Source: Saccharopolyspora sp. SCSIO 74807 (lineage in GTDB: Bacteria; Actinomycetota; Actinomycetes; Mycobacteriales; Pseudonocardiaceae). From it: a stretch of 64,000 bases of DNA. The stretch is taken from assembly GCF_037023755.1 (NCBI RefSeq), contig NZ_CP146100.1, positions 5,735,501 through 5,799,500 on the forward strand, given 5' to 3'. The notes under the pieces were generated by a model. It searched no databases. It had not been told where the DNA came from and saw nothing but the letters and a program-made list of their open reading frames with translations. A program made the position numbers and the translations under genes. Shown piece by piece: positions 4,898 to 63,599 of the stretch (its first letter is position 1; every line of letters begins with the position of its first letter).

Positions 4898-4950
4898 GGA
4901 GTGAACGGCCCGCTGGTCCCAATAGATTGGACGAACAGGCCGTTCACTCC
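4898..4950 (+). repeat. Nested inverted repeat, copy R1
   Basis: The 13-bp outer arms GGAGTGAACGGCC and GGCCGTTCACTCC are perfect. The inner palindrome CCAATAGATTGG carries a GTCC/GGAC extension. The copy lies 58 bases from R2, upstream of corA and downstream of the amine oxidase. Confidence 0.9.
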
Positions 4951-5008
4951 GCGATCAGGGGCACTCGGCCGACACACGCGGGCGCCGCTCGATCCGCGCA
5001 CTCATACC

Positions 5009-5061
5009 GGAGTGAACGGACCGTTGGTCCCAATAGATTGGGCGAACAGGCCGTTCGCTCC
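5009..5061 (+). repeat. Nested inverted repeat, copy R2
   Basis: The arms are GGAGTGAACGG and CCGTTCGCTCC, so one pair would be a G-U wobble in RNA. The core is CCAATAGATTGG. R2 starts 21 bases beyond the amine oxidase stop codon, which is a terminator position for that minus-strand gene. Confidence 0.9.
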
Positions 5062-5082
5062 AGGCTCGTGGCAGTGGGAGGG

Positions 5083-7056
5083 TCAGTGGCAGGGCGGTGC
5101 GGGAACGTCCAACGTGGGGTTCCGGTCGAAGAATCCGTTGGGCTTCAAGGTGAATCCGCAGGTGTCGATCGGCATCACCGGCCAGTCCTCGGTGCGCGGG
5201 AAGTGCGTCGTGCCGAAGGTGTGCCACAGCACCAGATCGGCACCGTCGATCGATTCGCCCGCGGCGACGTACTCGGGAACCCCGGCACCGCCCGCGTTCT
5301 GGTTGACGTGCTCACCCGCGGGCCAGCGCTGTCCGTCCCGGTACTGCGACACCCACAGGTGCTTGGTCGCGAACGCCGCCCGGCGCGCGTTCGGGGAGTC
5401 GTCATCGGCCAGCAACGTCGGCTGCCCCTGCGGATGCAGCACGTAGCCGACCGGTCGGCCGAGCCGGTTGGTGACTTCCGGGTTCGTCACCCGCCAGCTC
5501 CGCGCGACCGAATTGTCGGCCATCCGCCCGGATTCCGTCTCCAGCCGGGTCGAGGTGCGGGTGAATCCGTTGCCGTGCGGGTTCTCCGCGCTCATCGGCA
5601 CCCGCCGCACCTCGACCTCGTCGACGGCGTTGCGCAGCCCGTCCACCATCATGTCCAGCCGCGCGCCGAACAGGTGCTGGTGGAACGGCGCCCCGAGGCC
5701 CGGCGCGAGCTCGCTCGCCCACGGATACCCGCCGTCCGGGTACGCAGCCCCCGGGTACGCAGCCCCCGGGTCCGCAGCCCCCGGGTCCGCAGTCCCCGGG
5801 TAAGCGGAGGTGAACACGACACCGGTCGACTTGACCTCCAACTGGATCGTGCCGTCCAGGTAGAGGTACCAGTAGAAGCCGTAGTCGTAGTTGCCGATGG
5901 TGGCGAAGAAGGAGATGACCAGCCTGCGCTGCCGCCGCGCCTGCTTGGAACCGGTGAAGATGTCGGTGTGCTTCCACAGCAGCCCGGCGTCCTCCTCGTG
6001 CAGGCAGATCGCGTTGTCGACGGTCAGCGGTTCGCCGTGGTCGTCGGCGACGGTGACGTCGAAGTAGCGGATCTCGCCGAGGCAGTCGCAGCCGCGCCGC
6101 AGCGAGTTCACCTGCTTGCCGAGCAGGTACTCCCCGGCGTCGAAGTAGCTCTGCCAGAACCGCACCGGGCCCGGGTCGCCGTAGGGCACGACCATCTCGG
6201 CGATCGACGCGCGGTGCACGATCGGCCGCAGCCGGTCCCCGTCCCGGTAGTGGATCTGGTGCAGCACCAAGCCTTCGCGGGCGTCGAAGCCGATCCGGAA
6301 CCGCCAGTCGTGCCAGCTGACCGCATCGCCGGAGACGGTGAAGCTGGGTCCTTCCGGCTGGCTGATCTCGATCGGCCGCAGGTCGGTGCGGGCCGGCCCG
6401 GTCTGCTCCGGATCGTCGAAATTCCCCTCCTCGGCGGGGATCGGCACGAGCGCGTGGTCGATCACGTCGAGGACCTTGCGCTCGATCAGGTCCACGTAGG
6501 CGACCAGGCCGTCGATCGGGTGCGCCCACGGGTGATCCTCCGGGCGGTGCTGCAGGAAGCTGAGCACGCGCACCATCCGGCGGCCTTGCTCGCCGGGGAT
6601 GTCGAACACGCCCGCGGACAACGGGCAGGCGCGCACCTGCGCGGTGTCGGTGATGCCGCGCCGGGCCAGCGCGTAGGTCCACCGCTCGTCGGCGGCGACG
6701 ATCTCGCCGACACCTGCGAGGTCCTCGCCGAGGATCGGCGGCTGCCCTTCGGCGACCACGTCCACCTCGCGCAGCGATTCCACCGCGCGATCCGGCAGCG
6801 CCACCACGGCGTCGGTGACCCGGCCGGTGCCGGTATCCAGCAGCAGCGCCTTGACGCGGCGCGGTACCGGGTCGCCGTCCCGGAACGCCAGCACGTCGGC
6901 CTTCGGCGGTTCCTCCAGGCCGAGGTAGGCGAAGCGGGTCGATGCTCCGGCGGCTCCGGTTTCGCGCAGGACCTCGCGGGCGGTGCGGATTTCTGCCGGT
7001 TGCAGGCGGTCGAGCGGATGTGCCGGTGCTTGCTCGGCTGCTCGCGTCGTCATCAT
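5083..7056 (-). CDS. Copper-containing primary amine oxidase
   Basis: This 657-residue copper amine oxidase would oxidatively deaminate primary amines to aldehydes, releasing ammonia and H2O2. The TPQ cofactor precursor is the Tyr of IGNYDYGF (about residue 389). The HxH copper ligands are in FHQHLFGARLDM (about 456-458), and a third His is likely in GTTHFPRTEDWPVMP. The length is typical of the family. An insertion of about 20 residues made of PGAAD/PGAAY repeats lies between the TPQ and HxH motifs. GAGGAG precedes the paired ATGs at 7056 and 7053. No signal peptide is visible. Confidence 0.95.
   Translation of the reverse strand: MMTTRAAEQAPAHPLDRLQPAEIRTAREVLRETGAAGASTRFAYLGLEEPPKADVLAFRDGDPVPRRVKALLLDTGTGRVTDAVVALPDRAVESLREVDVVAEGQPPILGEDLAGVGEIVAADERWTYALARRGITDTAQVRACPLSAGVFDIPGEQGRRMVRVLSFLQHRPEDHPWAHPIDGLVAYVDLIERKVLDVIDHALVPIPAEEGNFDDPEQTGPARTDLRPIEISQPEGPSFTVSGDAVSWHDWRFRIGFDAREGLVLHQIHYRDGDRLRPIVHRASIAEMVVPYGDPGPVRFWQSYFDAGEYLLGKQVNSLRRGCDCLGEIRYFDVTVADDHGEPLTVDNAICLHEEDAGLLWKHTDIFTGSKQARRQRRLVISFFATIGNYDYGFYWYLYLDGTIQLEVKSTGVVFTSAYPGTADPGAADPGAAYPGAAYPDGGYPWASELAPGLGAPFHQHLFGARLDMMVDGLRNAVDEVEVRRVPMSAENPHGNGFTRTSTRLETESGRMADNSVARSWRVTNPEVTNRLGRPVGYVLHPQGQPTLLADDDSPNARRAAFATKHLWVSQYRDGQRWPAGEHVNQNAGGAGVPEYVAAGESIDGADLVLWHTFGTTHFPRTEDWPVMPIDTCGFTLKPNGFFDRNPTLDVPAPPCH
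5736..5795 (-). repeat. 4 x 15-bp in-frame tandem repeat in the amine oxidase gene
   Basis: Four consecutive 15-base units of the form CCGGGTMCGCAGCCC (plus strand) encode a PGAAD/PGAAY pentapeptide array at residues about 420-440. The first two units are identical, as are the first 12 bases of the last two. This suggests recent slippage expansion. Confidence 0.9.
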
Positions 7057-7170
7057 CGTGCTCCTCGTCGAGCCCGTGGTCGAGTGCCGCGGATCGGGTC
7101 GCGGGCGCCGACGGGATCACCGCGGAACGACAGACACCTGGACCGCCCCGTGGCCCAGTTCACGACGATT

Positions 7171-7200
7171 ACGCTACGGAGAAGCGCGCGGAGCTGGCAA
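7171..7200 (-). promoter_or_regulatory. Candidate promoter of the amine oxidase gene
   Basis: On the minus strand TTGCCA, an 18-base spacer and TAGCGT resemble a sigma-70-type promoter about 115 bases upstream of the amine oxidase start. The match is only moderate. Confidence 0.3.
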
Positions 7201-7239
7201 GGAGCGTCACCGGTACGCGCAGCACGGGTGCGCGGCTGC

Positions 7240-8247
7240 TCAGCGTGCGGCCGCGACCTCGGGTTCCGGCGCGCGCTGCGGCTCGGCGGCGCTGCCCTGC
7301 CGCTGCGCCAGCACCGCGCACACGATCAGCTGCGTCAGGTGGTAGAGCATCACCGGCAGCACGACCAGCCCGACCATGGTGCTGGGGAACAGCACGTTCG
7401 CGATGGGCAACCCGGTGGCGAGGCTCTTGACCGAGCCGCAGAACACGATCGCCTTCTCGTCGCCGCGGTCGAACCCGAGCACGCGGGCGGCTCCCCTGGT
7501 GATCAGCAGCACCGCGGTCAGCAGCACCGCGATCACCGCGAACAGCGCCGCGAGCTGGAGCACGCCGATCTGCTGCCAGATACCGCCCGCCATGCTCTTG
7601 CTGAACGCGACGTAGACGATCAGCAGGATGGAGCCGCGGTCGTAGTAGCTCAGCACCTTCTTGTGCCGCTCGATCCCGTCGCCGATCCAGCGCCGCGACA
7701 GGTGTCCCACCACGAACGGCAGCAGCAGCTGGAAGACCAGGCTCAGCACCGAGCTCGCGGAGATCCCGCCGCCGTCGCCACCCATCAGCAGTGCGACGAG
7801 CAACGGCGTGAGCGCGATACCGGCCATGTTGGACAGTGACGCCGAGCAGATCGCGGACGCCACGTTCCCGCCCGCTGTGGCGGTGAAAGCGATCGAAGAC
7901 TGCACAGTGGACGGAAGCGTGCACAGGAACAGCACACCGCTGTAGAGCGCGGGCGTGAGCACCACCGGAACCAGCAGGTTCGCGCCGAGCCCGAGCAGCG
8001 GGAACAGTGCGAAGGTGCACAGGAACACCACGACGTGCAGCCGCCAGTGCTTGAGTCCATCGAGGACGGCGCGGGATGAAAGCCGCGCGCCGTAGAGGAA
8101 GAACAGCCCGGCGATGGCCACGTCGGTGACGCCGTCGGCGACGGTCGCGCCCGCACCGCTGGCGGGCACCAGCGCGGCGACGCCGACGGTGGCCAGCAAG
8201 GCGAGGACGTAGGGATCGGGGCGCAGACGGCGCAGCAGCGTGCTCAT
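7240..8247 (-). CDS. Bile acid:sodium symporter-family (BASS/SBF-like) transporter
   Basis: This 335-residue integral membrane protein has about ten hydrophobic segments and lacks a large soluble domain. The FLYGARLS segment and the conserved core around TLPSTVQSSIAFTATAGGN and FCGSVKSLATGLP identify the SBF-like family, which exports or imports organic anions driven by Na+ or H+. The C terminus ends in a hydrophilic tail rich in Ala, Glu and Pro. The gene is divergent from a LysR gene across a 115-base gap with two palindromes, so LysR control is likely. The substrate is unknown. Confidence 0.92.
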   Translation of the reverse strand: MSTLLRRLRPDPYVLALLATVGVAALVPASGAGATVADGVTDVAIAGLFFLYGARLSSRAVLDGLKHWRLHVVVFLCTFALFPLLGLGANLLVPVVLTPALYSGVLFLCTLPSTVQSSIAFTATAGGNVASAICSASLSNMAGIALTPLLVALLMGGDGGGISASSVLSLVFQLLLPFVVGHLSRRWIGDGIERHKKVLSYYDRGSILLIVYVAFSKSMAGGIWQQIGVLQLAALFAVIAVLLTAVLLITRGAARVLGFDRGDEKAIVFCGSVKSLATGLPIANVLFPSTMVGLVVLPVMLYHLTQLIVCAVLAQRQGSAAEPQRAPEPEVAAAR

Positions 8248-8310
8248 GTGCCTTCCTCACCGGACGGGTTGACTCGCCGCGAGTCTCAGCCACCGCTCGG
8301 TTGGCTGTGA

Positions 8311-8327
8311 ACCACGATTTCCGTGGT
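8311..8327. promoter_or_regulatory. Palindrome upstream of the transporter gene
   Basis: Arms ACCACG and CGTGGT are separated by five AT-rich bases. It lies in the gap between the divergent LysR and transporter genes, 64 bases from the transporter start, and could be the activation half of a LysR site pair. Confidence 0.5.
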
Positions 8328-8331
8328 GACG

Positions 8332-8352
8332 GTTATCGCGAAGCGCGATAAC
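8332..8352. promoter_or_regulatory. Strong palindrome next to the LysR start, probable LysR box
   Basis: Perfect 9-bp arms GTTATCGCG and CGCGATAAC flank AAG and end 10 bases before the LysR start codon. TTATC and GATAA give the T-N11-A form expected of LysR recognition sites. Its position fits negative autoregulation. Confidence 0.72.
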
Positions 8353-8362
8353 GTGGCCGTCG

Positions 8363-9214
8363 ATGTTCCCTCCGGCCCTGCTCAGGACGTTCCTCGTGGT
8401 GGCGCAGACGCGGAGTTTCACCCAGGCCGCGCAGCGGCTCGGTGTGCGGCAATCCACAGTCAGCCAGCACGTCCGCAAGCTCGAGCAGGTCGCGTCCCGG
8501 CGGCTGTTCACCCGCAGCACGCACGCCGTCGCGCTCACCGCCGACGGCGAGGCGATGGTGGGTTTCGCGCGCAGCATCCTCGCGGCCAACGAGCGCGCGA
8601 CGAGCTACTTCGCCGGTTCCGAACTGCGCGGGCGGTTGCGCTTCGGCGCCTCGGAGGACTTCGTGCTGTCCAAGCTGCCGGAGATCCTGGCCGAGTTCCG
8701 GCGTTCGCACCGGCTGGTCGACCTGGAGCTGACCGTCGGGATGAGCGGCACGCTGCACGAGCAGCTGCACAACGACGAGCTCGACCTCGTCTTCGGCAAG
8801 CGCCGCCCCGGGCAGTCGGTTGGCAGGCTGGTGTGGCGGGAACCGCTGGTGTGGATCGGGCGCGAGGATCTGTCGCTGGATCCGGGCGAGCCGGTGCCGC
8901 TGATCCTGTACCCGCCGCCGAGCATCACCCGCGCGCAGGCGCTGGAAACGCTGGAACGGCAAGGGCTTTCGTGGCGGATCACGTGCACCAGCGGGAGCTT
9001 CAGCGGATTGCGCGCCGCGGCACTGGCCGGGCTGGGGGTCGCGGTGCACGCTCGCAGCCTGGTGCCGGAAGGATTGCGCCAGCTGCCCGCGCACGCCCGG
9101 CTTCCCGATCCGGGAGAGGTCGAATTCGTGCTGCTGGGTGGTGACGGCACGGACGAAGGGCCCGCCGCGGCGCTTTCCGCAGCCATCCTGGACAACAGCG
9201 ACCGGCTGCACTGA
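8363..9214 (+). CDS. LysR-family transcriptional regulator
   Basis: This 283-residue LysR protein has the N-terminal winged helix RSFTQAAQRLGVRQSTVSQHVRKLE (about residues 17-41). A linker helix and an alpha/beta co-inducer domain starting at about residue 86 (GRLRFGASEDFV) follow. It is a little shorter than the usual 290-310 residues. Transcription is divergent from the SBF-like transporter, and a perfect palindrome abuts its start, so it probably controls that transporter and itself. The ligand, probably the transported organic anion, is not deducible. Confidence 0.94.
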   Translation: MFPPALLRTFLVVAQTRSFTQAAQRLGVRQSTVSQHVRKLEQVASRRLFTRSTHAVALTADGEAMVGFARSILAANERATSYFAGSELRGRLRFGASEDFVLSKLPEILAEFRRSHRLVDLELTVGMSGTLHEQLHNDELDLVFGKRRPGQSVGRLVWREPLVWIGREDLSLDPGEPVPLILYPPPSITRAQALETLERQGLSWRITCTSGSFSGLRAAALAGLGVAVHARSLVPEGLRQLPAHARLPDPGEVEFVLLGGDGTDEGPAAALSAAILDNSDRLH

Positions 9215-9442
9215 ATCCGGCCGGTGCTCCGCAATACCTCGCCGCGCGAGGCACCAGCAGCGCCGTGCTCCGCACCCGACCGGGTCGCACGGACGGTCCA
9301 CATAGGACGTCGTCCTGTGCGGCAGATCTCATCCTTGCGCGAGCTCTGTTAACCGGCGCGTCACAGTTGGTTCAGCCACTCGGCCACTTCGGCTGTCTAA
9401 GTTCGGGATCGTCCGAAGTGCCCGACTCCAGCGAGGTGCGAC

Positions 9443-10066
9443 TTGCCGACCGTTTTCCGCGAAGTGAACCGCTCCCGACTCTACGAGCAGGTGCTGGCCC
9501 AACTGCGCGAGCACATCGCCGCGGAGGGGCTGCGCACGGGCGATCGCCTGCCACCGGAACGCAGGCTCGCCGAACTGCTGGGCGTGAGCCGCGCTTCGGT
9601 CAAACAAGCCGTCGTGGCACTGGAATCCGAGGGCGTCGTGCAGGTGTGCCACGGCAACGGCACCTACCTCCGGACCGACCTGGACGCGGCGGGCGCGCAA
9701 CCGCGCACGGGTCGGGACGCCGCGGAGACCGCGGTCGAGGCGCACCGGGCATTGGAGGTGAAGCTCGCCGAACTCGCCGCGCGGAATCGCGGTGACAGCG
9801 ATCTCGCGAGCCTTGACCCGGCAGCGACCGCGAACGGTCAAGGAATATTAGAACATTTTCATGAAACGGTGCGCGAGGCGGCGCACAACCCGCTGCTGGC
9901 CGATTTCGCGCGGGAAGCCGCGGAATACGCGGAAAGCCCGCCCTGCGAACCCCGCAGCGGGTCGGCCGCGGCCGAGCACGCACGCATCGCCGAAGCGATC
10001 GCAGCAGGTCACGCCCATACCGCAGGACTCGAAATGGCCAGGCACCTGAACGCTTCCGCGCACTGA
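9443..10066 (+). CDS. GntR-family regulator (FadR/FCD-like, short) with a TTA codon
   Basis: This 207-residue regulator has a GntR winged helix at residues 11-76 (YEQVLAQLREHI, LPPERRLAELLGVSRASVKQAV). A helical effector domain resembling FCD follows but is shortened. The start is TTG at 9443, after GCGAGG. A TTA leucine codon occurs at 9848-9850, directly after a rare ATA, in an AT-rich patch. I found no other in-frame TTA in the window's genes. In actinomycetes such codons can make translation depend on the bldA tRNA. The next gene is an amidase 263 bases downstream, a plausible target. Confidence 0.88.
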   Translation: MPTVFREVNRSRLYEQVLAQLREHIAAEGLRTGDRLPPERRLAELLGVSRASVKQAVVALESEGVVQVCHGNGTYLRTDLDAAGAQPRTGRDAAETAVEAHRALEVKLAELAARNRGDSDLASLDPAATANGQGILEHFHETVREAAHNPLLADFAREAAEYAESPPCEPRSGSAAAEHARIAEAIAAGHAHTAGLEMARHLNASAH

Positions 10067-16020: not shown

Positions 16021-16326
16021 GTGCACACCGAGGTGAACGACCAGCCCGACCGCACCCGTTACGAGCTCACCGCCGACGGCGCGGCCGCGGGGCACGTCGA
16101 ATACCACCTGCACCGGGACCTCATGGCGTTGCTGCACACCGAGATCGACCCGGCCTACTCCGGCCAAGGACTCGGCAGCAAACTGATCCGGGGCGCCCTG
16201 GACGATGCGCGGCAGCGGAACCTCAAGGTCCAGCCGTTCTGCGCTTTCGTGCGGGGGTTCATCGCCAAGCACCCGGACTACCTGGACCTCGTCGCGGCCG
16301 AGGACAGGGAGCGGTTCGCGCTCTGA
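16021..16326 (+). CDS. Small GNAT-like N-acetyltransferase (YjdJ/GCN5-14 type)
   Basis: This 101-residue protein has the minimal acetyl-CoA-binding core of the N-acetyltransferase_14 group. It contains ALLHTEIDPAYSGQGLGSKLI with the Q/R-x-x-G-x-G/A-like loop (SGQGLGS), then PFCAFVRGFIAKHPDYLDLV near the C terminus. The start is GTG at 16021, five bases after a full AGGAGG. It stands alone, convergent with an enoyl-CoA hydratase, and nested repeat R3 sits exactly midway between the two stop codons. The target is unknown. Confidence 0.92.
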   Translation: MHTEVNDQPDRTRYELTADGAAAGHVEYHLHRDLMALLHTEIDPAYSGQGLGSKLIRGALDDARQRNLKVQPFCAFVRGFIAKHPDYLDLVAAEDRERFAL

Positions 16327-16345
16327 GCAATCGTTGCGTCGTTCC

Positions 16346-16396
16346 GAGTGAACGGACTGCTCGCCCAATCTATTGGGACCAACGGTCCGTTCGCTC
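16346..16396 (-). repeat. Nested inverted repeat, copy R3
   Basis: This is an inverted-orientation copy: on the minus strand it reads GAGCGAACGGACC, core CCAATAGATTGG, then GTCCGTTCACTC. It lies 19 bases from each of the two convergent stop codons, an ideal bidirectional terminator position. Confidence 0.92.
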
Positions 16397-16415
16397 CATC
16401 GTCTCAGAAGAGGTC

Positions 16416-17177
16416 TCACCGACCCCTTGCGCGTCGGAATTCTTCGACCGCCGCGCGGTGTTCGCCGGAGCCGAACAGCAGCGCCGTCGCCTCGGTGGAT
16501 TCGGCGAAGCCGCCGACCGCGTCGCGGTTGATGAACGACTTCCCCACTTGGGCCGACAGCGGTGAGTTCGCCGCGATCTCGCCCGCCAGCCCCATCGCCT
16601 CGGCGAGCAGCGCCTCGTCGGAGTGGACCTCCTGCACCAGACCCGCCCGCACCGCACGTTGCGCGTCGATGGTCCTTCCGGACAGAGCCAGGTATCGCGT
16701 CCAATGCCGCCCCATCACTTCGGGCCCGCGCACGATCCCGTAACCCGGCATGAGTCCGACGTGCGGTTCTTTGAACGCGAACCGCGCGGATTCGCCGGCC
16801 AGCACGACATCGCAGGCCAGCGCCAGCTCCGTCCCGCCGCCGTAGGCCAGACCGTTTACCGCGGCGATCACCGGAACCGCGCACCGTTCCACCGAGTTGA
16901 ACGCTTCGTACACGAATTTCAGGTGCGGACGCACCTTTTCCACGTCGCCGGCGAGGTCGTGGAACATGTCGATGTCCCCGCCCGCGGAGAACGCCCGCCC
17001 GGATCCGGTGAGCACGATCGCGCGCACGTCGTCGCCCACCCCGGCCTCCTGCATGATCTCGCGCAGCTCGCGGAACCAGGTGCGGTCCATGGCGTTGAGC
17101 TTCTCGGGACGATCCATCGTCAACAGCAGGACGTTCCCGTTCTGGTTGCGGGTGAAGCGCAGCAGCTCGTCGGTCAT
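16416..17177 (-). CDS. Enoyl-CoA hydratase/isomerase (crotonase superfamily)
   Basis: This 253-residue crotonase-fold protein contains the oxyanion-hole segments FSAGGDIDMFHDL and AAVNGLAYGGGTELALACD. The second region has a Glu (GTELA) near the usual catalytic position, compatible with hydratase activity on an acyl-CoA. The start at 17177 is chosen because its ATG overlaps the TGA of the upstream acyl-CoA ligase (ATGA) and GGGAGAG lies just before. The two genes form an operon and could act in sequence: activate an acid, then hydrate its enoyl-CoA. The substrate is unknown. Confidence 0.93.
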   Translation of the reverse strand: MTDELLRFTRNQNGNVLLLTMDRPEKLNAMDRTWFRELREIMQEAGVGDDVRAIVLTGSGRAFSAGGDIDMFHDLAGDVEKVRPHLKFVYEAFNSVERCAVPVIAAVNGLAYGGGTELALACDVVLAGESARFAFKEPHVGLMPGYGIVRGPEVMGRHWTRYLALSGRTIDAQRAVRAGLVQEVHSDEALLAEAMGLAGEIAANSPLSAQVGKSFINRDAVGGFAESTEATALLFGSGEHRAAVEEFRRARGR

Positions 17178-18727
17178 GAGCTCTCCCGGTCCCACGTATC
17201 GGCGGTGACGCCCTGTTCGCGCAACTTGTACTTCTCCACCCGCTGGCTCGGTGTCATCGGCAGCTCGTCGAGCACGCGCACGTAGCGCGGAACCGCGAAA
17301 TCGGTCAGGCCGCTCGTGCAGTGCCGCAGCAACTCGGCCGGTTCAACCAGCTTCCCGTTGCGCACCACGATCGCGACCATCACGTCCTCTTCGGACAGTT
17401 CGGACGGCACGCCGTAGGCCGCGGCCTGAGCCACGGCGGGATGGTCGGCGACGACCCGCTCGACCTCCCAAGTCGAGATGTTCTCGCCACGCCGCCGGAT
17501 CGTGTCCTTGAGCCGGTCGAGGAACACCAAGAACCCGTCCTCGTCGAGGAAACCGCGATCGCCGGTGTGGAACCACAGGTTGCGCCAGCTTTTCGCGGTC
17601 GCCTCGGGCATGTCGTGGTAGCCGTCGAACATCCACCCCGGCTTCTTCGGCCGGGCCACGATTTCCCCTGCGGTGCCGGAAGAAACCGGTTCGTCGCGCT
17701 CATCGACGACCGCCACCTGGTAGTTCGCCGACTCCTTGCCGGCTGTGCCGATCTTGCGCCTGCCTGGTGGCATGTCGGTGACGATGGAAACCTCGGTGCT
17801 GCCGTAGATCTCGGTGAGCCGCAGCCCGAACCGGCGCTCGAAGTCCGCGAAGATCTCCGGCGGGCAGGGCGCGCCGAAGGCCAGCCGCACCGGATTGTCG
17901 GCGTCGTCCGGCCGCGGCGGCTGCTTGTGCAGGATGCTGAGCATCGCGCCCTGGTAGTTGAACGCCGTGATCCCGTGCTCCCGGCAGATGTCCCAGAACC
18001 CGCTCGCCGAGAACCGCCGGTCCAGCACCAGATCGGCGCCCGCCTCGATGGCGGCCATCACGCTGCAGTAGCGGGCATTGCTGTGGAACAGCGGGAAAAC
18101 GCTGTAGAGCCGGTCGGCCGCGGTGTAGCCGAGCAGCTCGACGGTGTGCCTGGCCAGGTTGATGTTCGCGCGGTGGCTCAGCACGACCCCTTTCGGCGGG
18201 CCGGTCGTGCCCGAGGTGTAGAGCACGACCGCCGGGTCGGTAGGCCGCACCGCGGGCAGCGGCCCGGCGGAGCGCGCGGCCAGGTCGGCGAGCCGCTGCC
18301 CGGTTTCGGGTTCGCCGTGCACGACGATGTGGACGATCTCGGGCGCCTCCGCCGCGCACTCCGCGACCAGGGGCTCGAACTCGGCGTCGCAGACCACGGC
18401 TTTGGCGCCGGCTTGCCGGAGGAAGTAGGTGAGCAGGTACCGGCCGCTGGAGACGTTCAGCGGCACCTCGACCAGACCCGCCTTCGCCGCGGCGAACCAC
18501 ACCTGCAACGCGGAGGTGCTGCTGCGCATCATCAGGCAGACGCGATCGCCCGGTCGCAAGCCGAGCTCGGCGAACCCGCCGGCCAGTCGCTCGGCCGCCG
18601 CGTCCAGCTCGCCGCAGCGGATGGTTTCACCGTTGACCAGCAGTGTCGCGCGGTCGCGCGCACGCCCGGCGGCGCCGGTGAGCCAGCCTCCGATGGTGGT
18701 GTCCTCGGCATTCCGCGAACCCGGCAT
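17174..18727 (-). CDS. Acyl-CoA synthetase (class I adenylate-forming ligase)
   Basis: This 517-residue ANL enzyme would activate a carboxylic acid to its CoA thioester through an acyl-AMP. The P-loop VLYTSGTTGPPKGVVLSH lies at about residues 166-183. The A5 motif EIYGSTEVS, the TGDRG loop, and the C-terminal hinge DRLKDTIRRRGENIS follow. The catalytic Lys is expected in PSQRVEKYKLRE near the end. Overall it resembles crotonobetaine/carnitine-CoA ligase-like members. It is the first gene of a two-gene unit with the hydratase (4-bp overlap). Confidence 0.94.
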   Translation of the reverse strand: MPGSRNAEDTTIGGWLTGAAGRARDRATLLVNGETIRCGELDAAAERLAGGFAELGLRPGDRVCLMMRSSTSALQVWFAAAKAGLVEVPLNVSSGRYLLTYFLRQAGAKAVVCDAEFEPLVAECAAEAPEIVHIVVHGEPETGQRLADLAARSAGPLPAVRPTDPAVVLYTSGTTGPPKGVVLSHRANINLARHTVELLGYTAADRLYSVFPLFHSNARYCSVMAAIEAGADLVLDRRFSASGFWDICREHGITAFNYQGAMLSILHKQPPRPDDADNPVRLAFGAPCPPEIFADFERRFGLRLTEIYGSTEVSIVTDMPPGRRKIGTAGKESANYQVAVVDERDEPVSSGTAGEIVARPKKPGWMFDGYHDMPEATAKSWRNLWFHTGDRGFLDEDGFLVFLDRLKDTIRRRGENISTWEVERVVADHPAVAQAAAYGVPSELSEEDVMVAIVVRNGKLVEPAELLRHCTSGLTDFAVPRYVRVLDELPMTPSQRVEKYKLREQGVTADTWDRESS

Positions 18728-25238: not shown

Positions 25239-25279
25239 AGTGAGCGGACCTCGCGCTCCGGGGCGGCGGTCCGCTCACT
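25239..25279. repeat. Inverted repeat R9 (arms-only relative of R1-R8)
   Basis: Perfect 12-bp arms AGTGAGCGGACC and GGTCCGCTCACT match the outer arms of the nested repeat family, but the CCAATAGATTGG core is replaced by GC-rich sequence. It lies 3' of the PPOX gene at 25369 and probably terminates it. Confidence 0.8.
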
Positions 25280-33341: not shown

Positions 33342-33848
33342 ATGACGCTTCGACTGCGCGCGCTGGAGCGCGAGGATCTGCCGTTCGTGCACGGGTTGAC
33401 GAACAACTCGCAGATCATGACCTACTGGTTCGAGGAACCGTACGAAGCGCTGGTCGAGCTGCAGGACATCTACGCCCGGCACATCCACGACACGCGGGAG
33501 CGGCGGTTCGTGATCGAGGTGGACGGCGCGCGGGGCGGTCTGGTGGAACTGGTGGAGATCGACTACATCCACCGCAACGCGGAGTTCCAGATCATCGTCG
33601 CGCCGGATCACCAGGGGCGCGGGCTGGCCACCGAAGCGACTCGCAGAGCGCTGGACTACGCCTTCTCGGTGCTGAACATGCACAAGATCTACCTGCTGGT
33701 GAGCACCGAGAACCGCAAGGCGATCCGCGTCTACGAAAAGCTCGGATTCGTCGTGGAAGGCGAGCTGAAGGAGGAGTTCTTCTCCGCGGGCCGCTACCAC
33801 AACGCGCTGCGGATGGGCGTTTTCCAGGAGACCCACTTGGGCCGATGA
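33342..33848 (+). CDS. speG: Spermidine/spermine-type GNAT acetyltransferase (SpeG-like)
   Basis: This 168-residue GNAT begins MTLRLRALEREDLPFVHGLTNN. It carries the acetyl-CoA loop APDHQGRGLATEATRRALDYAFSVLNMHKIYLLVSTENRKAIRVYEKLGFVVEGEL. Its organisation matches SpeG polyamine acetyltransferases. It is convergent with ahcY; copy R4 of the nested repeat lies between, 99 bases after this stop. The upstream gap holds no clear operator. Confidence 0.88.
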   Translation: MTLRLRALEREDLPFVHGLTNNSQIMTYWFEEPYEALVELQDIYARHIHDTRERRFVIEVDGARGGLVELVEIDYIHRNAEFQIIVAPDHQGRGLATEATRRALDYAFSVLNMHKIYLLVSTENRKAIRVYEKLGFVVEGELKEEFFSAGRYHNALRMGVFQETHLGR

Positions 33849-33947
33849 CGGCGCCCCGCCGGCCGCCGCCTCCTCGACCGGCGTTGCTGGGGTTTCCGGC
33901 CCGCCACCGCCCGGGCGCTGCGGCTCCGGGCGGTGGCCGACCGTGCC

Positions 33948-33998
33948 GAGTGAACGGACCGTGTGACCGATCTAGTGGGACGAACAGTCCGTTCACTC
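33948..33998 (+). repeat. Nested inverted repeat, copy R4 (degenerate core)
   Basis: The arms GAGTGAACGGACC and CAGTCCGTTCACTC are intact, but the core is altered to GACCGATCTAGTGGGAC. It ends 4 bases before the ahcY stop. Confidence 0.85.
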
Positions 33999-34002
33999 GG
34001 GA

Positions 34003-35460
34003 TCAGTAGCGGTAGTGTTCGGGTTTGTAGGGCCCGTTGACGTCGACGCCGATGTACTCGGCCTGGGCCTTGGTCATGCGGGTGAGGTTGACCCCGAGCG
34101 CGTCCAGGTGCAGCCGGGCGACCTTCTCGTCCAGCAGCTTCGGCAGCACGTACACGTCCTTGCCGTACTCACCCGGCTTGGTCCACAACTCGATCTGCGC
34201 CAGCGTCTGGTTCGTGAACGAGTTCGACATCACGAAACTCGGGTGCCCGGTCGCGTTACCCAGGTTCAACAACCGGCCCTCGGACAACACCAGGATCGAG
34301 TGCCCATCGGTGAACGTGAACTCGTGCACCTGCGGCTTGATCTCGACCTTCCGCACACCCGGAGTCTTCTCCAACCCCGCCATGTCGATCTCGTTGTCGA
34401 AATGCCCGATATTGCCCACGATCGCCTGATGCTTCATCCGGCTCATGTGCTCAGCGGTGATGATGTCGAAGTTCCCGGTGGTGGTGATGAAGATGTCCGC
34501 GAACTCAACGACCTCGTCCAAGGTCTTGACCTCGTAGCCCTCCATCGCCGCCTGCAACGCGCAGATCGGGTCGATCTCGGTGACGATCACCCGAGCACCC
34601 TGGCCCCGCAGCGACTCCGCCGAGCCCTTACCGACATCGCCGAACCCGGCGATCACCGCGACCTTGCCACCAATGAGCACGTCGGTGGCGCGGTTGATGC
34701 CATCGACCAGCGAGTGCCGGCAGCCGTACTTGTTGTCGAACTTCGACTTCGTCACCGAGTCGTTCACATTGATCGCCGGGAACAACAGCTCCTCCGACTT
34801 GACCAACTCGACCAGCTTGTGCACACCGGTCGTGGTCTCCTCGGTAACGCCCTTGATCTCCTTCGCCAGCGTCGTGAACCGCTGGGCATCCTGCTCCAGG
34901 CTCTTACGCAGCGTCGACAGCACGACCTTGAACTCGTCCGGGTCGTCCTCAGTCGGCTGCGGCACCGCACCCGCGGCCTCGAACTCGACACCCTTGTGCA
35001 CCAGCAGCGTCGCGTCACCACCATCGTCCAGGATCATGTTCGCGAGCTTGCCGCCGCCGAACTCCCAGAGCTGGTTGGTGCACCACCAGTAATCCTCGAG
35101 CGTCTCACCCTTCCACGCGAACACCGGCACACCAGCAGGCTTGTCCGCAGTACCGCCACCGACCACGACCGCCGCCGCGGCCTCGTCCTGGGTCGAGAAA
35201 ATGTTGCACGACACCCACCGCACATCCGCGCCCAGCTCAACCAGCGTCTCGATGAGCACCGCCGTCTGCACCGTCATGTGCAACGAACCTGCGATCCGCG
35301 CGCCCTTCAGCGGCTTCGAGTCCGCATACTCCCGGCGAGTCGCCATCAAACCCGGCATCTCATGCTCCGCCAGCCGGATCTGGTGCCGACCGGACTCGGC
35401 CAGTCCCAGATCAGCGACGGCGAAATCGAGGCCATTGACCTTCTGCAAATTAACGCTCAT
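34003..35460 (-). CDS. ahcY: S-adenosylhomocysteinase
   Basis: This 485-residue NAD-dependent SAH hydrolase splits S-adenosylhomocysteine into adenosine and homocysteine, relieving product inhibition of methyltransferases. It has the N-terminal [23 protein letters not shown] and [16 protein letters not shown]. The NAD loop [31 protein letters not shown], and the conserved C terminus ending [10 protein letters not shown], complete it. An insertion after [13 protein letters not shown] is typical of longer actinobacterial versions. Its leader carries a SAH riboswitch and attenuator. The start is ATG at 35460, after GAGGAACGGAGC. Confidence 0.97.
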
Positions 35461-41679: not shown

Positions 41680-42465
41680 ATGGACCGCTCGACCTACGGC
41701 CCGTGGGCCGTCATCGCCGGAGGTTCGGAAGGCGTCGGCGAATCGTTCGCGCGGCGACTGGCCGATGCCGGCATCAACAGCGTGCTCATCGCCCGCAAAC
41801 CGGAACCGCTGCGAGCCACGGCCGAAGCGGTGCGCGCCGCCGGAGCCGAGGCCCGCACGCTCGAACTCGACCTGCTCGACCCGGCCGCGCTGGACGAGAT
41901 CCGCGCCGCGACCGATGACCTCGAAGTCGGCCTGCTGATCTTCAACGCGGGCGCGAACACCTACGGGCACGAGTTCGTCACCGGCGATCCGGACCGCACG
42001 CGCGAGGTCATCGACCTGAACATCACCGCGCAGCTCGCGCTGGCGCGGCACTTCGGCGAGGCGATGAAGAACCGGCGGCGCGGCGGAATCCTGCTGGTCG
42101 GGTCGATGGCCGGGTTCATGGGCCAGGCCGAGATCAGCGTCTACTCCGCGGTGAAGGCGTTCGGCCGGGTCTTCGCCGAAGGACTCTGGCTGGAGCTGCG
42201 CGAGTTCGACGTGCACGTGCTGGAGCTGGTGCTCGGCGTCACGAGGACACCGGCGATGCAGCGCGCCGGGTTGCGCTTGGACCTGCCCGGACTCGACGTC
42301 GCCGAACCCGATGACGTGGCGCGGGAGGGTCTCGAGCACCTCGCGGACGGTCCGGTGCGGATCGCGGGTGGCAACGAGCAGGCGGCGCGCAAACGCAACG
42401 AATTCCCCCGCGCGGACCGGATCCTCGCCGCGCACGAGGCGACCCGGCGCCTGATCGGCGGCTGA
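41680..42465 (+). CDS. Short-chain dehydrogenase/reductase
   Basis: This 261-residue SDR has the cofactor loop IAGGSEGVGESFARRLADAG (residues 12-31), NAGANTYGH, LVGSMAGFMG and YSAVKAFGRVFAEGLWLEL with the YxxxK pair. The C terminus is charged (ARKRNEFPRADRI). It follows the lipase by 111 bases on the same strand and is convergent with an HsaA-like gene, with repeat R5 between. Confidence 0.91.
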   Translation: MDRSTYGPWAVIAGGSEGVGESFARRLADAGINSVLIARKPEPLRATAEAVRAAGAEARTLELDLLDPAALDEIRAATDDLEVGLLIFNAGANTYGHEFVTGDPDRTREVIDLNITAQLALARHFGEAMKNRRRGGILLVGSMAGFMGQAEISVYSAVKAFGRVFAEGLWLELREFDVHVLELVLGVTRTPAMQRAGLRLDLPGLDVAEPDDVAREGLEHLADGPVRIAGGNEQAARKRNEFPRADRILAAHEATRRLIGG

Positions 42466-42481: not shown

Positions 42482-42533
42482 GGAGTGAACGGACCGTTCG
42501 TCCCAATAGATTGGACGAGCAGGCCGTTCACTC
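42482..42533 (+). repeat. Nested inverted repeat, copy R5
   Basis: Arms are GGAGTGAACGGACC and AGGCCGTTCACTC with core CCAATAGATTGG. It lies 16 bases after the SDR stop and 9 before the convergent HsaA-like stop. Confidence 0.92.
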
Positions 42534-42542
42534 GGTCCGCAG

Positions 42543-43727
42543 TCAGATCATGTTGCGCAACGGGCCCGGAGGCGGTTGCAGCCCCAGCTGCCCCAATGCC
42601 GAGGCGTGCAGCACCGCTCCGGGCGCGTGGATCGCGTGCGCCAGGCCCATGTGCGCGTCGCGCCAGAAGCGCTGCATCGGGTTGTCCGACCGCATCGCGT
42701 TCCCACCGGACCGCGCGACGATCTCGTCGACCGCCCGCACCGCGCGCCATGCCGCCTGCACCTGCTCGCGGCGCCCGATCGCGCGCCGCTCGAAAGTGAC
42801 TTCGTGCCCAGCGGCGACCAGGTCGTACATCCGGGAAGCGTTGTCCAGCACGGCGGTCCGGGACGCGGAGATCTCCGCGGCGGCTTCGCCGATGGCGGTC
42901 AGCGCGTACGGATCGTCCTTGATCCTGGTCCCGGTGATCTGGGTGCGGCCGCGCTGGTAGGCGAGGTGGTGTTCGAGCGCGCCCTCCGCGATGCCGACGA
43001 CCGCCGCGGTGATGCCGAGCGGGAACGCGCAGGAGAACGGCACGTGGTAGGTGGGGTTCGCCAGTCCGGCCTCCCTCGCGGCGGTGCCATCGACGAGCTT
43101 GCGGAAGGGGATAACGCGCTGCGCCGGGACGAACGCGTCCGCGACGACGATGTCCTTGCTGCCGGTGCCGCGCAGCCCCACCACGTCCCACGAGTCCTCG
43201 ACGATCTCGTAGTCCGCACGCGGCAGGACGAGGTGCAGGTGTTCCGGCGCTTCGGGCAGCGTGCCGTCCGGTTCCGCAACGCGGCCGCCGAGGAAGATCC
43301 AGTCGCAGTGGTCGGTCCCGGAGGAGAACTGCCAGCGCCCGTTGAAGACGTAACCGCCGTCGACGGGCCGTGCCACGCCCATCGGCGCGTACGGCGAGGC
43401 GATCCAGGTGTCCTGGTCGGCGCCCCAGATGGCCTGCTGCAGAGCCGGATCGGCCAGCGCCATCTCCCACGGGTGCACGCCGACGATTCCGGCGACCCAC
43501 CCGGTCGAACCGTCCAGCGCGGCGATGGCCAGCACCGCTTCGGCGAACTCGCGCGGGTGCGCTTCCATGCCGCCGTGCTCGCGCGGCTGCAGCATCCGGA
43601 TCACGCCGCACTCGCGCAACGCGGCCGTGGCTTCGCCGGTCAGCTTGCCAGCGGCCTCGTTGCGCGGAGCCTGTTCGCGGATCCGGTCCGCTGCAGCCGA
43701 GACGGCCTCGACCACCTGATTGCCCAT
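42543..43727 (-). CDS. hsaA: HsaA-like flavin-dependent monooxygenase (acyl-CoA dehydrogenase fold)
   Basis: This 394-residue protein has the acyl-CoA dehydrogenase fold. It matches HsaA, the oxygenase that 4-hydroxylates 3-HSA in bacterial steroid catabolism, in motif order: DGSTGWVAGIVGVHPWEMAL, SSGTDHCDWIFLGG, VGLRGTGSKDIVV and FWRDAHMGLAHAI. The C terminus ends GLQPPPGPLRNMI, also like HsaA. FADH2 from a partner reductase would be needed; no HsaB is nearby. A related phenol or indole monooxygenase is possible. GGGAGG lies before the ATG at 43727. Confidence 0.85.
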   Translation of the reverse strand: MGNQVVEAVSAAADRIREQAPRNEAAGKLTGEATAALRECGVIRMLQPREHGGMEAHPREFAEAVLAIAALDGSTGWVAGIVGVHPWEMALADPALQQAIWGADQDTWIASPYAPMGVARPVDGGYVFNGRWQFSSGTDHCDWIFLGGRVAEPDGTLPEAPEHLHLVLPRADYEIVEDSWDVVGLRGTGSKDIVVADAFVPAQRVIPFRKLVDGTAAREAGLANPTYHVPFSCAFPLGITAAVVGIAEGALEHHLAYQRGRTQITGTRIKDDPYALTAIGEAAAEISASRTAVLDNASRMYDLVAAGHEVTFERRAIGRREQVQAAWRAVRAVDEIVARSGGNAMRSDNPMQRFWRDAHMGLAHAIHAPGAVLHASALGQLGLQPPPGPLRNMI

Positions 43728-57276: not shown

Positions 57277-57299
57277 CTTCGACACACGAACCGTCGAAG
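57277..57299. terminator. Terminator hairpin after rhaB
   Basis: Arms CTTCGAC and GTCGAAG (7 bp) enclose a 9-base loop. It lies between the convergent rhaB and the minus-strand gene at 57311. A looser stem overlaps at 57253-57278. Confidence 0.55.
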
Positions 57300-57310
57300 A
57301 TTGGCGGACC

Positions 57311-58003: not shown

Positions 58004-58099
58004 TGTGCTCCTCTCTGCACTGGTGGCACTCTGCGGTAGACGGCGCGTTCCGCGTGGAACAATTGAGCTACATCACCCGATCAGCGCACGCTCCATCCA

Positions 58100-58152
58100 G
58101 GAGTAACTCGACCGTTCGTCCAATCCAGCCGGTCCAACAGTCCGCTCACTCC
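58100..58152 (+). repeat. Nested inverted repeat, copy R6 (degenerate)
   Basis: The ends GGAGTAACTCG and CAGTCCGCTCACTCC are recognisable, but the core is reduced to CCAATCCAGCCGG. A second right-arm CCGTTCACTCC follows at 58166-58176, and the purB-family stop codon is built into it. Confidence 0.75.
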
Positions 58153-58169
58153 GAGCTGCGGTGCTCCGT

Positions 58170-59519
58170 TCACTCCGATCGGCCGACGACGTCGAAGGTC
58201 ATGGCGCGGGCGCTGCCGAGGTAGTTGGCCGGGTCGCAGAGCTCGTCGATGCGGTTCTCTCCGAGCTGCTCGACGAGTTCGGGATGGTGGCGCAGCTCGC
58301 GGGCGAGGTCGTCGCCCCGCTCGATCGCGTTGCGGCAAGCGTCGTAGACCACTTCGTGCGCGCGTTGCCGCCCGAGCACGGGCGCGACGGCCATCATGAC
58401 GGCCTCGGCCACGATGAGGCCGCCGGTGCGCGAAGTGTTGGCGCGCATCCGGTCGACGTCCACTTCGAGCCCGCCGAGCATGAATTCGGCCTGGTGCAAC
58501 GAAGAAGCCGCGAGTTGGAAGGCCTCCGGCACGGCGGCCCATTCGAGGTGCCACGGGCCGGTGGCCCGCTCGAAGTCCTGCATCATCGCGTCGAGCATCG
58601 AAGAAGCCTTGTCCCGCAGCAGTTTCGCGGTGGCGACCAGCAGTTCGCTGGAGATCGGGTTGCGCTTCTGCGGCATGGTCGAGCTGGCGCCGCGGCCGGG
58701 CACGAACGGCTCGGCGAGTTCGCCGAACTCCGAGGAGCACATCATCATCACGTCCCACCCGATCTTGCCGAGCGAGCCGCCGATCGCGGCCAGCAGCGAG
58801 ACGATCTCGTTGAGCCCGTCGCGCGCGACGTGCCAGGTGATCCCGGGGTCGCGCAGCCCGAGCTCGGTCGCGAGCGCGGACCGCACTGCGAGTCCTTCGG
58901 GGCCGTCGCCCAACGATGCGAGGGTTCCGGCAGCGCCGCCGAACTGCACCATGAGATCCCGTTCGCGTGCTTGCGCGAGCCGTTCGCGGTGCCGGTCCAG
59001 CGCCGAAACCCAGACGGCGGCCCGGAATCCGAACGTCACCGGCAGCGCGTGCTGCAGATGCGTGCGGCCGGCCGCGACGGTGTCCGCGTGCTCGGCGGCC
59101 AGTCGGCGCAGCGCAGCGCGCACCCGGTCCAAGGCCGCCGCGACCAGGTCGAGCCCGTCGCGGCATTGCAGCATCGTGGCGGTGTCCATGATGTCCTGAG
59201 TGGTCGCTCCCCAGTGCAGGTAGCCGCCGGCCTCGCCGCACTGCTCGGCGAGCTGGGTGACCAGCGGCAGCACCGGGTAACCGACGTTCCCGGTCTCGAC
59301 GCGCAGCCGCTCGTGGTCGAGCGAATCCGGAAGGACCGAGTCGGTGATGGTCTGCGCGGCCTCGTGCGGCACGACACCGGTCTTCGCCTGCGCTCGAGCG
59401 AGCGCGGCCTCCGTTTCGGTCATGCGCGCGACGAACGCGGTGTCGCTGAAGACCTCGCGCATCTGGGCGGTGGAGAACATGTCGCGGTAGAGGAAGGAAT
59501 CGAAGACTGAGCTGTTCAC
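58170..59519 (-). CDS. Fumarase/adenylosuccinate lyase superfamily lyase
   Basis: This 449-residue member of the aspartase/fumarase superfamily has the catalytic signature GASSTMPQKRNPISSEL (about residues 272-288). The upstream THLQHALPVTFG and HWGATTQDIMDTATMLQ motifs are also present, so it eliminates a C4-dicarboxylate (fumarate) or opens a ring. It resembles both PcaB-type cycloisomerases and adenylosuccinate lyases. Its GTG overlaps the stop of a dicarboxylate transporter. A role in releasing fumarate from an imported succinyl or similar compound is plausible. The stop codon lies in a repeat arm. Confidence 0.87.
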   Translation of the reverse strand: MNSSVFDSFLYRDMFSTAQMREVFSDTAFVARMTETEAALARAQAKTGVVPHEAAQTITDSVLPDSLDHERLRVETGNVGYPVLPLVTQLAEQCGEAGGYLHWGATTQDIMDTATMLQCRDGLDLVAAALDRVRAALRRLAAEHADTVAAGRTHLQHALPVTFGFRAAVWVSALDRHRERLAQARERDLMVQFGGAAGTLASLGDGPEGLAVRSALATELGLRDPGITWHVARDGLNEIVSLLAAIGGSLGKIGWDVMMMCSSEFGELAEPFVPGRGASSTMPQKRNPISSELLVATAKLLRDKASSMLDAMMQDFERATGPWHLEWAAVPEAFQLAASSLHQAEFMLGGLEVDVDRMRANTSRTGGLIVAEAVMMAVAPVLGRQRAHEVVYDACRNAIERGDDLARELRHHPELVEQLGENRIDELCDPANYLGSARAMTFDVVGRSE

Positions 59520-60877: not shown

Positions 60878-60891
60878 GCTCGACACCCCTC

Positions 60892-60922
60892 TGTGTCTAG
60901 ACACATTTTCTGTCTAGACACA
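60892..60922. promoter_or_regulatory. Double TGTCTAGACA operator upstream of dctA
   Basis: TGTGTCTAGACACA (60892-60905) is followed after TTTTC by TGTCTAGACACA (60911-60922). Two 10-bp perfect palindromes sit 17 bases apart. It lies between the GntR stop and the dctA start, in the style of UTRA-type GntR operators, and could be bound by the neighbouring GntR. Confidence 0.75.
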
Positions 60923-60964
60923 TTGCGGTGCGGTCGGGCCGGTTGTCAACCGACGGACCGCGAG

Positions 60965-61720: not shown

Positions 61721-61908
61721 ATCGCACAGCATCCCACGTCGCGCGCAGGTTGATACGCCGCGACATACGACCGGTTGATCACTCGGCCCACGAACTCCCG
61801 CCGAAAACCGCAAAACGCACTCGCCCGGATTTGCCCGGCGTTACGGTTGGCGCGGTCGAATGGCCGCGGATCCAGCGTCCTCGCGGGTCCGCTGCCCGAG
61901 GGGGAATC

Positions 61909-63162
61909 ATGAGATCTTCCGCGTCAGACCCGTTCGATGGACCGGCGAGCAGCACCGATCCGATCGTGATCGATCCGTTGGTGCGCGATCTCGACGGCGA
62001 GACCCGCGCGCTGCGCGCGGCCGGTCCGCTGGTGCGCGTCGAGCTGCTCGGCGTACCCGCGTGGTCGGTCACCCGCCACGCCGAAGCCAGGCGGTTGCTC
62101 ACCGATCCGCGGCTGGTCAAAGACATCGGGCGGTGGAAGCTGTGGCGCACCGGTGCGGTCACCCGTGCTTGGCCGCTGATCGGCATGATCGACCCCGGGC
62201 GCTCGATGTTCACAGTGGACGGAGCGGAACACCGGCGACTGCGCGCGAAGACGGCGCAGGCGATGACGCCGCGGCGGCTGGAGAACATCCGGCCGTTGAT
62301 CGCCGGCACCGTCCGGGAGCTGCTCGACGAACTCGCCGCACAGGGCGAGCACGGCCCGGTCGATCTCAAAGAGCTGTTCGCGCAGCCGTTGCCGATGGCG
62401 GTGATCAGCGCGCTGATGGGCGTTCCGGCCGACCTGCGCGCTCGGCTGCACACGCTTTACAAGGCGTTCTTCTCGATGCTGACGCCGCAGGACGAGCGGC
62501 TGGCGGTCTTCGCCGAACTCGACGACATCTTCCTGGAGTTGGTGCGGGCGCGTGCCGCCGAACCCGCCGACGACCTCACCAGTGCGCTGATCACGGCCGA
62601 GGAAGGCGGCGAACCGCTCACCGAGCAGGAAGTGCTCGGCAACCTCAAAGCGATGGTGGGCGCGGGGCATGAGACGACGGTCAGCCTGATCCTCAACGCC
62701 GTGCGGGCGCTGCTCGACCACCCCGATCAGCTGCGCATGGTGCTGGCCGGCGAAATCGGCTGGGATGCGGTGATCGAGGAGGCGCTGCGCTGGGACACGC
62801 CGACCACGCACCTGCTGATGCGGTTCGCCACCGCGGACATCGAAGTCGGTGGCGAGGTGATCCGCGAAGGCGATGGAGTCGTGCTGTCGTATCGCGCGAT
62901 CGGCCGGGACACCGGGCATCACGGGCCGGACGCGGACGAGTTCCGCATCGACCGCGCCGATGCGGCCAGGCACATGACCTTCGGTCACGGCCCGCACGTC
63001 TGCCCAGGAGCGGGACTGTCCAGAATGGAGGCCGGTATCGCACTTCCCGCGCTGTTCGAGCGGTTTCCCCGGCTGCGCGCGGCAGTGCCCGCGGTGCAGA
63101 ACCAGCCCGTGCTCACGCAGAACGACCTGCAGGAGTTCCCGGTCTTGCTGCACGGTGGTTGA
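61909..63162 (+). CDS. Cytochrome P450
   Basis: This 417-residue P450 has the I-helix AMVGAGHETTVSLI, EEALRWDTPTTHLLMR (ExxR) and the heme loop FGHGPHVCPGAGLSRME. Pro instead of Leu after the Cys (C-P-G) is unusual but tolerated. ATG at 61909 follows GAGGGGG; the upstream in-frame sequence does not look coding. It lies beyond a promoterless gap divergent from GntR. Its substrate is unknown. Confidence 0.93.
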   Translation: MRSSASDPFDGPASSTDPIVIDPLVRDLDGETRALRAAGPLVRVELLGVPAWSVTRHAEARRLLTDPRLVKDIGRWKLWRTGAVTRAWPLIGMIDPGRSMFTVDGAEHRRLRAKTAQAMTPRRLENIRPLIAGTVRELLDELAAQGEHGPVDLKELFAQPLPMAVISALMGVPADLRARLHTLYKAFFSMLTPQDERLAVFAELDDIFLELVRARAAEPADDLTSALITAEEGGEPLTEQEVLGNLKAMVGAGHETTVSLILNAVRALLDHPDQLRMVLAGEIGWDAVIEEALRWDTPTTHLLMRFATADIEVGGEVIREGDGVVLSYRAIGRDTGHHGPDADEFRIDRADAARHMTFGHGPHVCPGAGLSRMEAGIALPALFERFPRLRAAVPAVQNQPVLTQNDLQEFPVLLHGG

Positions 63163-63204
63163 TCCGGCGCGGGCGCGGCGGCCCGGATCGGGTCCGGCTA
63201 CGCC

Positions 63205-63471
63205 GTGATCGCCTCTTACCTCGGCACGGTCGGCGAGTCGGGGATCACCGCTCCCGCCGCGGAAACCGCCGAAGGCGTCCTGGCGAAGTCCACTCCGGAC
63301 AGAGCGCTCTTCCCGGCCGCACCGCTGAGCGAGGCGTTCTCGCACCACTCGCTCGAAGCCCGCGCCGGAATCCCGCCGGAAACGGGCTACTTCCCCCTCG
63401 CAGCAGCCGACCTCGACGGCATCGACGCGATCGCGTTCATCACCGACGCTTCCGAACCTCGCACCACGTGA
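63205..63471 (+). CDS. Small hypothetical ORF in the reading frame of the P450 stop
   Basis: An 88-residue frame from GTG at 63205, or a longer one continuing in frame directly from the P450 TGA at 63160-63162. It reads GYAVIASYLGTVGESG, then PAAETAEGVLAKS, GIPPETGYFPL and IDAIAFITDASEP. It has coding-like GC bias but no recognisable motif. It may be a small gene, or a remnant of an extended or neighbouring gene. The nested repeat R7 begins 2 bases after its stop. Confidence 0.4.
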   Translation: MIASYLGTVGESGITAPAAETAEGVLAKSTPDRALFPAAPLSEAFSHHSLEARAGIPPETGYFPLAAADLDGIDAIAFITDASEPRTT

Positions 63472-63473
63472 CC

Positions 63474-63525
63474 GGAGTGAGCGGACCGTCGGTCCCACTA
63501 GATTGGACCAACAGTCCGTTCACTC
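63474..63525 (+). repeat. Nested inverted repeat, copy R7
   Basis: Arms GGAGTGAGCGGAC and GTCCGTTCACTC (one G-U pair) flank core TCCCACTAGATTGGACC. It starts 2 bases after the small ORF stop. Confidence 0.88.
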
Positions 63526-63547
63526 GGTAAGTCCGGCGGGTGCGTTC

Positions 63548-63599
63548 GGAGTGAGCGGAACTTTGGTCCCACTAGATTGGTCAAACGGTCCGTTCGCTC
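63548..63599 (+). repeat. Nested inverted repeat, copy R8
   Basis: Arms GGAGTGAGCGGAA and CGGTCCGTTCGCTC are more diverged; core GGTCCCACTAGATTGG. It is tandem to R7, 22 bases away. Confidence 0.85.

Follow-up and report, generated by a model that had tools for sequence, protein, structure and literature searches.

Extragenic palindromes are usually treated as terminators, mRNA stabilisers or relics of transposons, and experiments are needed to distinguish between these roles. Other short palindromes, the domain-organising sites of the matS/MatP or SlmA type, are unevenly spread along the chromosome. The closest described counterparts of the family studied here are the REP and BIME elements of enterobacteria, Pseudomonas and others, high-copy extragenic palindromes that lie by gene 3' ends, range from singles to clusters and bind gyrase, IHF or Pol I. 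REPs measure 20-40 bp and are placed at the 3' ends of genes (PMC3733652), they cluster, in BIMEs they alternate in orientation (PMC2817692), they are known as targets of insertion sequences (PMC1525189), and the BIME-2 elements of E. coli are gyrase sites (PMC6379681). The main text of a recent broad REP survey mentions neither Saccharopolyspora nor Pseudonocardia (PMC12306157), and no report of the present family or of helically phased extragenic palindromes was found in the literature searched, most of it outside subscription papers. The family belongs to Saccharopolyspora, a genus of Pseudonocardiaceae, and resembles REP and BIME elements in copy number, extragenic location by gene 3' ends and occurrence as singles or clusters. 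It differs from them in unit length (about 53 bp) and in a 53-bp consensus that, genome by genome, ends without a GTAG or CGTC tag. REP-type placement and clustering are already known; what is new here is the helically phased array.

The window, that is, the whole 64,000-nt stretch analysed, spans positions 5,735,501-5,799,500 of a genome of 6,688,468 bases in one contig (G000) and is 98.7% identical to Saccharopolyspora sp. HNM0986 over 8,016 bases. A preliminary description had listed eight copies of a nested inverted repeat in this window, and all eight were found at the positions it gave. R1 (4898-4951, + strand, 80.1 bits) has R2 on one side and, on the other, the start of a CorA-like gene (3705-4850, -), and R2 (5009-5062, +, 77.6 bits), at 111 bp from R1 centre to centre, lies about 20 nt past the stop of a copper amine oxidase gene (5083-7056, -). 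Three copies do lie between convergent genes, as had been claimed, according to our own gene calls: R3 (16344-16397, -, 79.4 bits) between a GNAT gene (16021-16326, +) and an enoyl-CoA hydratase gene (16416-17195, -), R4 (33946-33999, -, 71.9 bits) between another GNAT gene (33342-33848, +) and an S-adenosylhomocysteine hydrolase gene (34003-35460, -), and R5 (42482-42535, +, 79.2 bits) between genes for a short-chain dehydrogenase (41680-42465, +) and an acyl-CoA dehydrogenase (42543-43727, -). R6 (58099-58152, -, 59.1 bits), the most degenerate of the eight, lies about 17 nt past the stop of a lyase gene (58170-59519, -). R7 (63474-63527, +, 78.4 bits) begins 3 nt past the end of a short open reading frame with weak support (63205-63471, +), and R8 (63548-63601, +, 71.6 bits) follows at 74 bp centre to centre. 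The stops next to R2 and R6 are on the minus strand; R4 is 4 nt from the minus-strand stop but not close to the other, and R1 lies beyond R2.

A covariance model built from these eight copies recovers, by construction, the same eight places in the window. The core CCAATAGATTGG has 11 matches there at up to two mismatches (several sites being scored on both strands) against 0.87 expected from 100 shuffles, of which the largest gave 4. An arms-only relative had also been proposed at 25239-25279, with arms AGTGAGCGGACC/GGTCCGCTCACT and another loop; the hairpin can be seen by eye, but it is absent among the covariance-model and nhmmer matches listed, and its membership is doubtful. Elsewhere in the window, positions 53-1933 hold two neighbouring similar genes about 1.02 kb apart, with blocks 80-86% identical.

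The element is a near-perfect palindrome of about 53 bp, with a variable 13-bp core between two arms based on the dyad GAACGGWCCGTTC. Each arm is itself a dyad, and 315 of the 317 exact occurrences of GAACGGWCCGTTC in the scanned loci fall within elements. Of 330 copies, 326 have an odd-length palindrome; the four even-length ones were dropped before counting. The mean consensus frequency of the arms is 0.84 in G000 and 0.91-0.94 in the congeners, and the favoured cores differ from genome to genome, giving species-specific core dialects.

The family is present far beyond the window. At least 150 covariance-model matches, at apparently distinct places, were obtained in G000, and at least 141 in each of the five genomes formed by G000 and four congeners (G001 to G004), where both strands of one copy can count twice. 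With an E value of up to 0.001, matches occurred in 10 of 41 genomes: these five, G017 (62 matches) and G009 (13), which represent other genera of the same family, and G008, G011 and G021 (2-3 each). An exact pattern gave forward/reverse counts of 43/38 in G000, 156/138 in G001, 102/101 in G002, 123/141 in G003 and 74/75 in G004, or 75-156 places per congener, and the same pattern read backwards matched nowhere. Among 249 Pseudonocardiaceae genomes, it matched 15, namely six Saccharopolyspora, G009 and eight with 1-3 places per strand. The reversed-sequence control produced no match of at least 15 bits, against 343 real ones; nhmmer matches below 20 bits, and copies in the part of locus L009 that overlaps the window, were dropped before counting. 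Stretches taken at even intervals had densities of 20 (G000), 45 (G001), 35 (G003) and 5 (G004) per Mb; densities within the chosen loci are unrepresentative because most loci were picked for holding matches. The palindromes of G009 share identical arms with the family but have a different core. Those of G017 are related and share its layout, its gene-end position and, in part, its arrays, but differ in core or arms and were missed by the exact pattern, and some are exact 30-bp tandems. At loci L154, L155 and L166 of G017, such tandems of the cousin palindrome have small dyads in alternation.

Gene positions were taken from our own codon-usage gene calls. We found that 324 of 330 copies lay outside called genes. 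Two outcomes that would have counted against the preliminary description, a family confined to the window and copies as common in coding DNA as chance would place them, did not arise. Among gaps of at least 60 bp, there were 52 sites for 258 convergent, 65 for 759 codirectional and 18 for 344 divergent gaps. In codirectional gaps, the first copy lay at a median of 20 nt past the upstream stop. Most sites of G000 (47 of 57) hold single copies, and in the congeners copies are often in arrays of up to six. The picture is one of dispersed extragenic palindromes, genome-wide and in relatives, that favour the 3' ends of genes and the gaps between convergent ones, and to this extent the preliminary description was right.

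In these arrays, the distances between neighbours are periodic. Of 184 neighbour pairs less than 150 bp apart, 154 had non-redundant spacers and were analysed, pairs at 150 bp or more and redundant spacers being excluded. Their centre-to-centre distances peak at 64.3, 75.1, 86.1, 96.7, 107.8, 118.6 and 129.8 bp. The best free period was 11.09 bp (bootstrap 10.84-11.35; 154 pairs), with a Rayleigh p of about 3e-14 at 11.09, and at each of the three bandwidths tried the observed series was stronger than all 3,000 smoothed resamples. The period was significant separately in G001 (65 pairs), G003 (34) and G004 (37), it was seen in both same- and opposite-orientation pairs, and when a single random spacing was drawn from each of 97 arrays the median power reached 24.4, whereas the strongest of 3,000 null draws gave 9.8. 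Bacterial DNA in vivo has been reported to have a helical repeat close to 11 bp (PMC8501960). A zero-phase fit gave 10.79 bp, with a bootstrap interval reaching up to 11.99, and for the G003 pairs at zero phase 11.85 fitted better than 10.75. A control set of 164 stop-to-centre distances also showed a weak peak, with a raw power of 5.2 at 11.5 and 2.4 at 11.1. Coherence was weak between second neighbours (power 2.65, 87 distances) and absent between third neighbours at 10.75 bp (37 distances), a loss that an independent jitter of about 2 bp per step would predict. The arrays are not rigid overall: phasing fades past the nearest neighbour.

The phasing rests mostly on the relatives, the window genome supplying 7 of the 154 non-redundant pairs, and the R1-R2 distance misses the closest peak by about 3 bp. 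Unlike BIMEs, which alternate (PMC2817692), neighbouring elements are mostly in the same orientation (120 of 154 pairs), and a spacing phased at about 11 bp, for which no precedent was found in the literature searched, also sets them apart from REP and BIME elements. Among the opposite-orientation neighbours of the same set, minus-plus pairs numbered 26 and plus-minus pairs 8. The 12 spacings of G017 (mean cosine 0.53, P 0.004) give only a hint of phasing, because they were hand-picked after repeats within arrays had been collapsed and three of them (69, 69 and 30) misfit.

The sites of the family are persistent. Between the window genome and a same-species genome, all eight copies compared were common across about 27 kb, in stretches chosen for holding copies. 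Of 211 gene junctions in a copy-rich region of G003, 110 had counterparts in both G004 and G001, those without adjacent orthologues in both other species being dropped; 99 of them were empty in all three species, 9 were occupied in all three and 2 in a subset. Thus, 9 of 11 occupied orthologous junctions were common to the three species, and 27 of the 66 copies in the G003 region lie at these 11. The nine include two divergent gaps (2/2/2 and 3/2/4 copies). The number of copies per orthologous junction varies (e.g., 2/4/4, 3/1/6 and 5/0/6). In eight arrays compared, copies were 90% alike by best match; the best spacer matches averaged 0.745 against 0.689 for random pairs (95th percentile 0.812), with 2 of the 16 listed values above that percentile and most spacers at chance similarity. 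At junction 174403 of the joined G003 region there are 5 copies in G003, 6 in G001, 3 in G002 and none in G004, where the gap is 108 bp and is a candidate lost or empty site.

These data bear on the explanation that the element is a selfish repeat of REP or MITE type, spread by a transposase that is extinct or acts in trans, and surviving where it does least harm, after genes, with the phase as a by-product of insertion beside a protein-bound copy. The copies are dispersed, extragenic and few in divergent gaps relative to convergent ones, as in REPs, which elsewhere also lie less than 20 bp from 3' ends (PMC3733652), and the core dialects and the variable array size at orthologous sites are likewise REP-like. 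However, no target-site duplication was detected, no k exceeding the shuffled maximum (329 copies, k = 2-10, offsets 0-7, 20 shuffles), 8 of 8 copies compared over about 27 kb are common to the same-species genomes, and sites are common across species though most spacers are at chance similarity. Moreover, the family searched for as Y1/RAYT (PF01797) had no match in G001 to G004, genomes full of copies, which is a further difference from REP and BIME systems and leaves a RAYT link unsupported in the congeners. We consider a selfish origin possible but on balance rather unlikely. G000 has two PF01797 matches, neither typed as RAYT or IS200; a copy at L017:7673-7722 and a Y1_Tnp (PF01797) gene at about 7842-9468 of the same locus (G000 2.4477-2.4495 Mb) are about 120 bp apart.

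Another explanation is that the copies act as RNA hairpins, either as bidirectional intrinsic terminators without a T-tract or as stabilisers of RNA 3' ends. The predicted + strand hairpins of seven of the eight window copies are very stable (-23.0 to -34.3 kcal/mol; R6, -13.5), and a strong hairpin past stop codons is what intrinsic (Rho-independent) terminators have; the median of 20 nt past the upstream stop, and placement near stops generally, also suit an RNA role. Hairpin clusters without a U-trail have been reported as terminators (PMC8355165). Canonical terminators were found in 1 of 114 gaps with elements and in 23 of 914 gaps without, a somewhat lower share that would fit replacement of terminators by elements, though the numbers are small; at least one gap (L075) contains both an array and a canonical terminator. 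Unlike intrinsic terminators, the elements lack a T-tract (at least five T in the 8 nt past the stem in 1 of 329 copies, with both flanks examined), and they have a conserved primary sequence, form arrays and occur in divergent gaps, where some arrays are conserved. At L034:8725-8785 in G001, an array is immediately preceded by a terminator-like hairpin with TTTT behind it, a hairpin that the strict scan left uncounted. An Rfam scan of the window at the gathering score returned no match. The mobilised, MITE-like terminator envisaged in the preliminary description loses ground on three sides, with no signal of target-site duplication, no T-tract, and sites common to strains and species.

Variation in the arms had been taken as compensation that keeps RNA pairing, a view that holds only in part. 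In G000, a median of 15 of 19 arm pairs is Watson-Crick. Across the five genomes, 74 two-sided departures keep the pair but 534 one-sided departures break it, and the fraction of paired positions exceeds that of within-genome shuffles by little. In the presumed transcripts of 156 codirectional copies, G·U pairs (137) were not in excess over A·C pairs (151), and with A·C pairs as common as G·U pairs nothing points to pairing selection specific to RNA. Compensatory change was rejected as proof of RNA structure, given the small excess over shuffles and the negative wobble test. With the helical phasing also against it, a role as RNA hairpins appears unlikely.

In G001, G003 and G004, a syntenic region of 200-240 kb, about 3% of each genome, holds 35-66% of the pattern copies (57+54 of 156+138 in G001, 43+53 of 123+141 in G003 and 49+46 of 74+75 in G004), synteny being defined by runs of reciprocal best hits. 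The region lies about 0.9-1.3 Mb from dnaA. G000 has no such single enriched region among its at least 150 model matches, and the window's distance from dnaA is about 2.6 Mb. Of the ten proteins next to conserved arrays that were scanned, most have ordinary accessory functions (methyltransferase, TetR, GNAT, metal ATPase, PucR, penicillin amidase, helicase, BioY and others). High expression was rejected as the cause of enrichment, as these proteins are mostly accessory and a peptide-motif scan across the called proteins gave one doubtful match. The elements resemble matS- or SlmA-type sites in being palindromic and unevenly spread, but differ in their compound 53-bp unit, their arrays and their sequence. 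It is conceivable, though quite improbable in our estimation, that the phased arrays are the cis part of a chromosome-organising system, in which a putative protein along one face of the DNA would condense or mark a domain of about 0.2 Mb some 1 Mb from oriC in the congeners.

Of the options raised at the outset, a DNA-structure or protein-binding site fits best. Our tentative preference, at a little short of an even chance, is that these REP-like palindromes act as double-stranded DNA sites, each bound by a putative protein, with phased neighbours in contact. Such a site fits better than an RNA device because the dyads are conserved and mismatches are tolerated symmetrically, because neighbours lie on one helical face, and because sites outlast the turnover of spacers. 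The copies form a genus-level family persisting at particular gene junctions, mostly just past stops, and in the congeners they have multiplied into short arrays. A candidate dyad-symmetric DNA-binding protein (or gyrase or nucleoid machinery, as with the BIMEs of E. coli) may bind each copy; bound neighbours would touch because a near-whole number of helical turns separates them, and the contacts may organise or insulate DNA at gene ends. E. coli BIME-2 is the nearest working model. We infer the binding protein, its cooperative binding and the chromosome effect, and also selection, not the mechanism of array birth, as the cause of the phase, although phasing could come from array birth.

Neighbours hold a phasing of about 11 bp while the sequence and length of their spacers turn over between species, and in this the sequences point to the double helix. 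If this reading of the phasing holds, the element would be a lure for the bound protein and would allow a phase-shift test, and the finding may bear on REP and BIME arrays generally.
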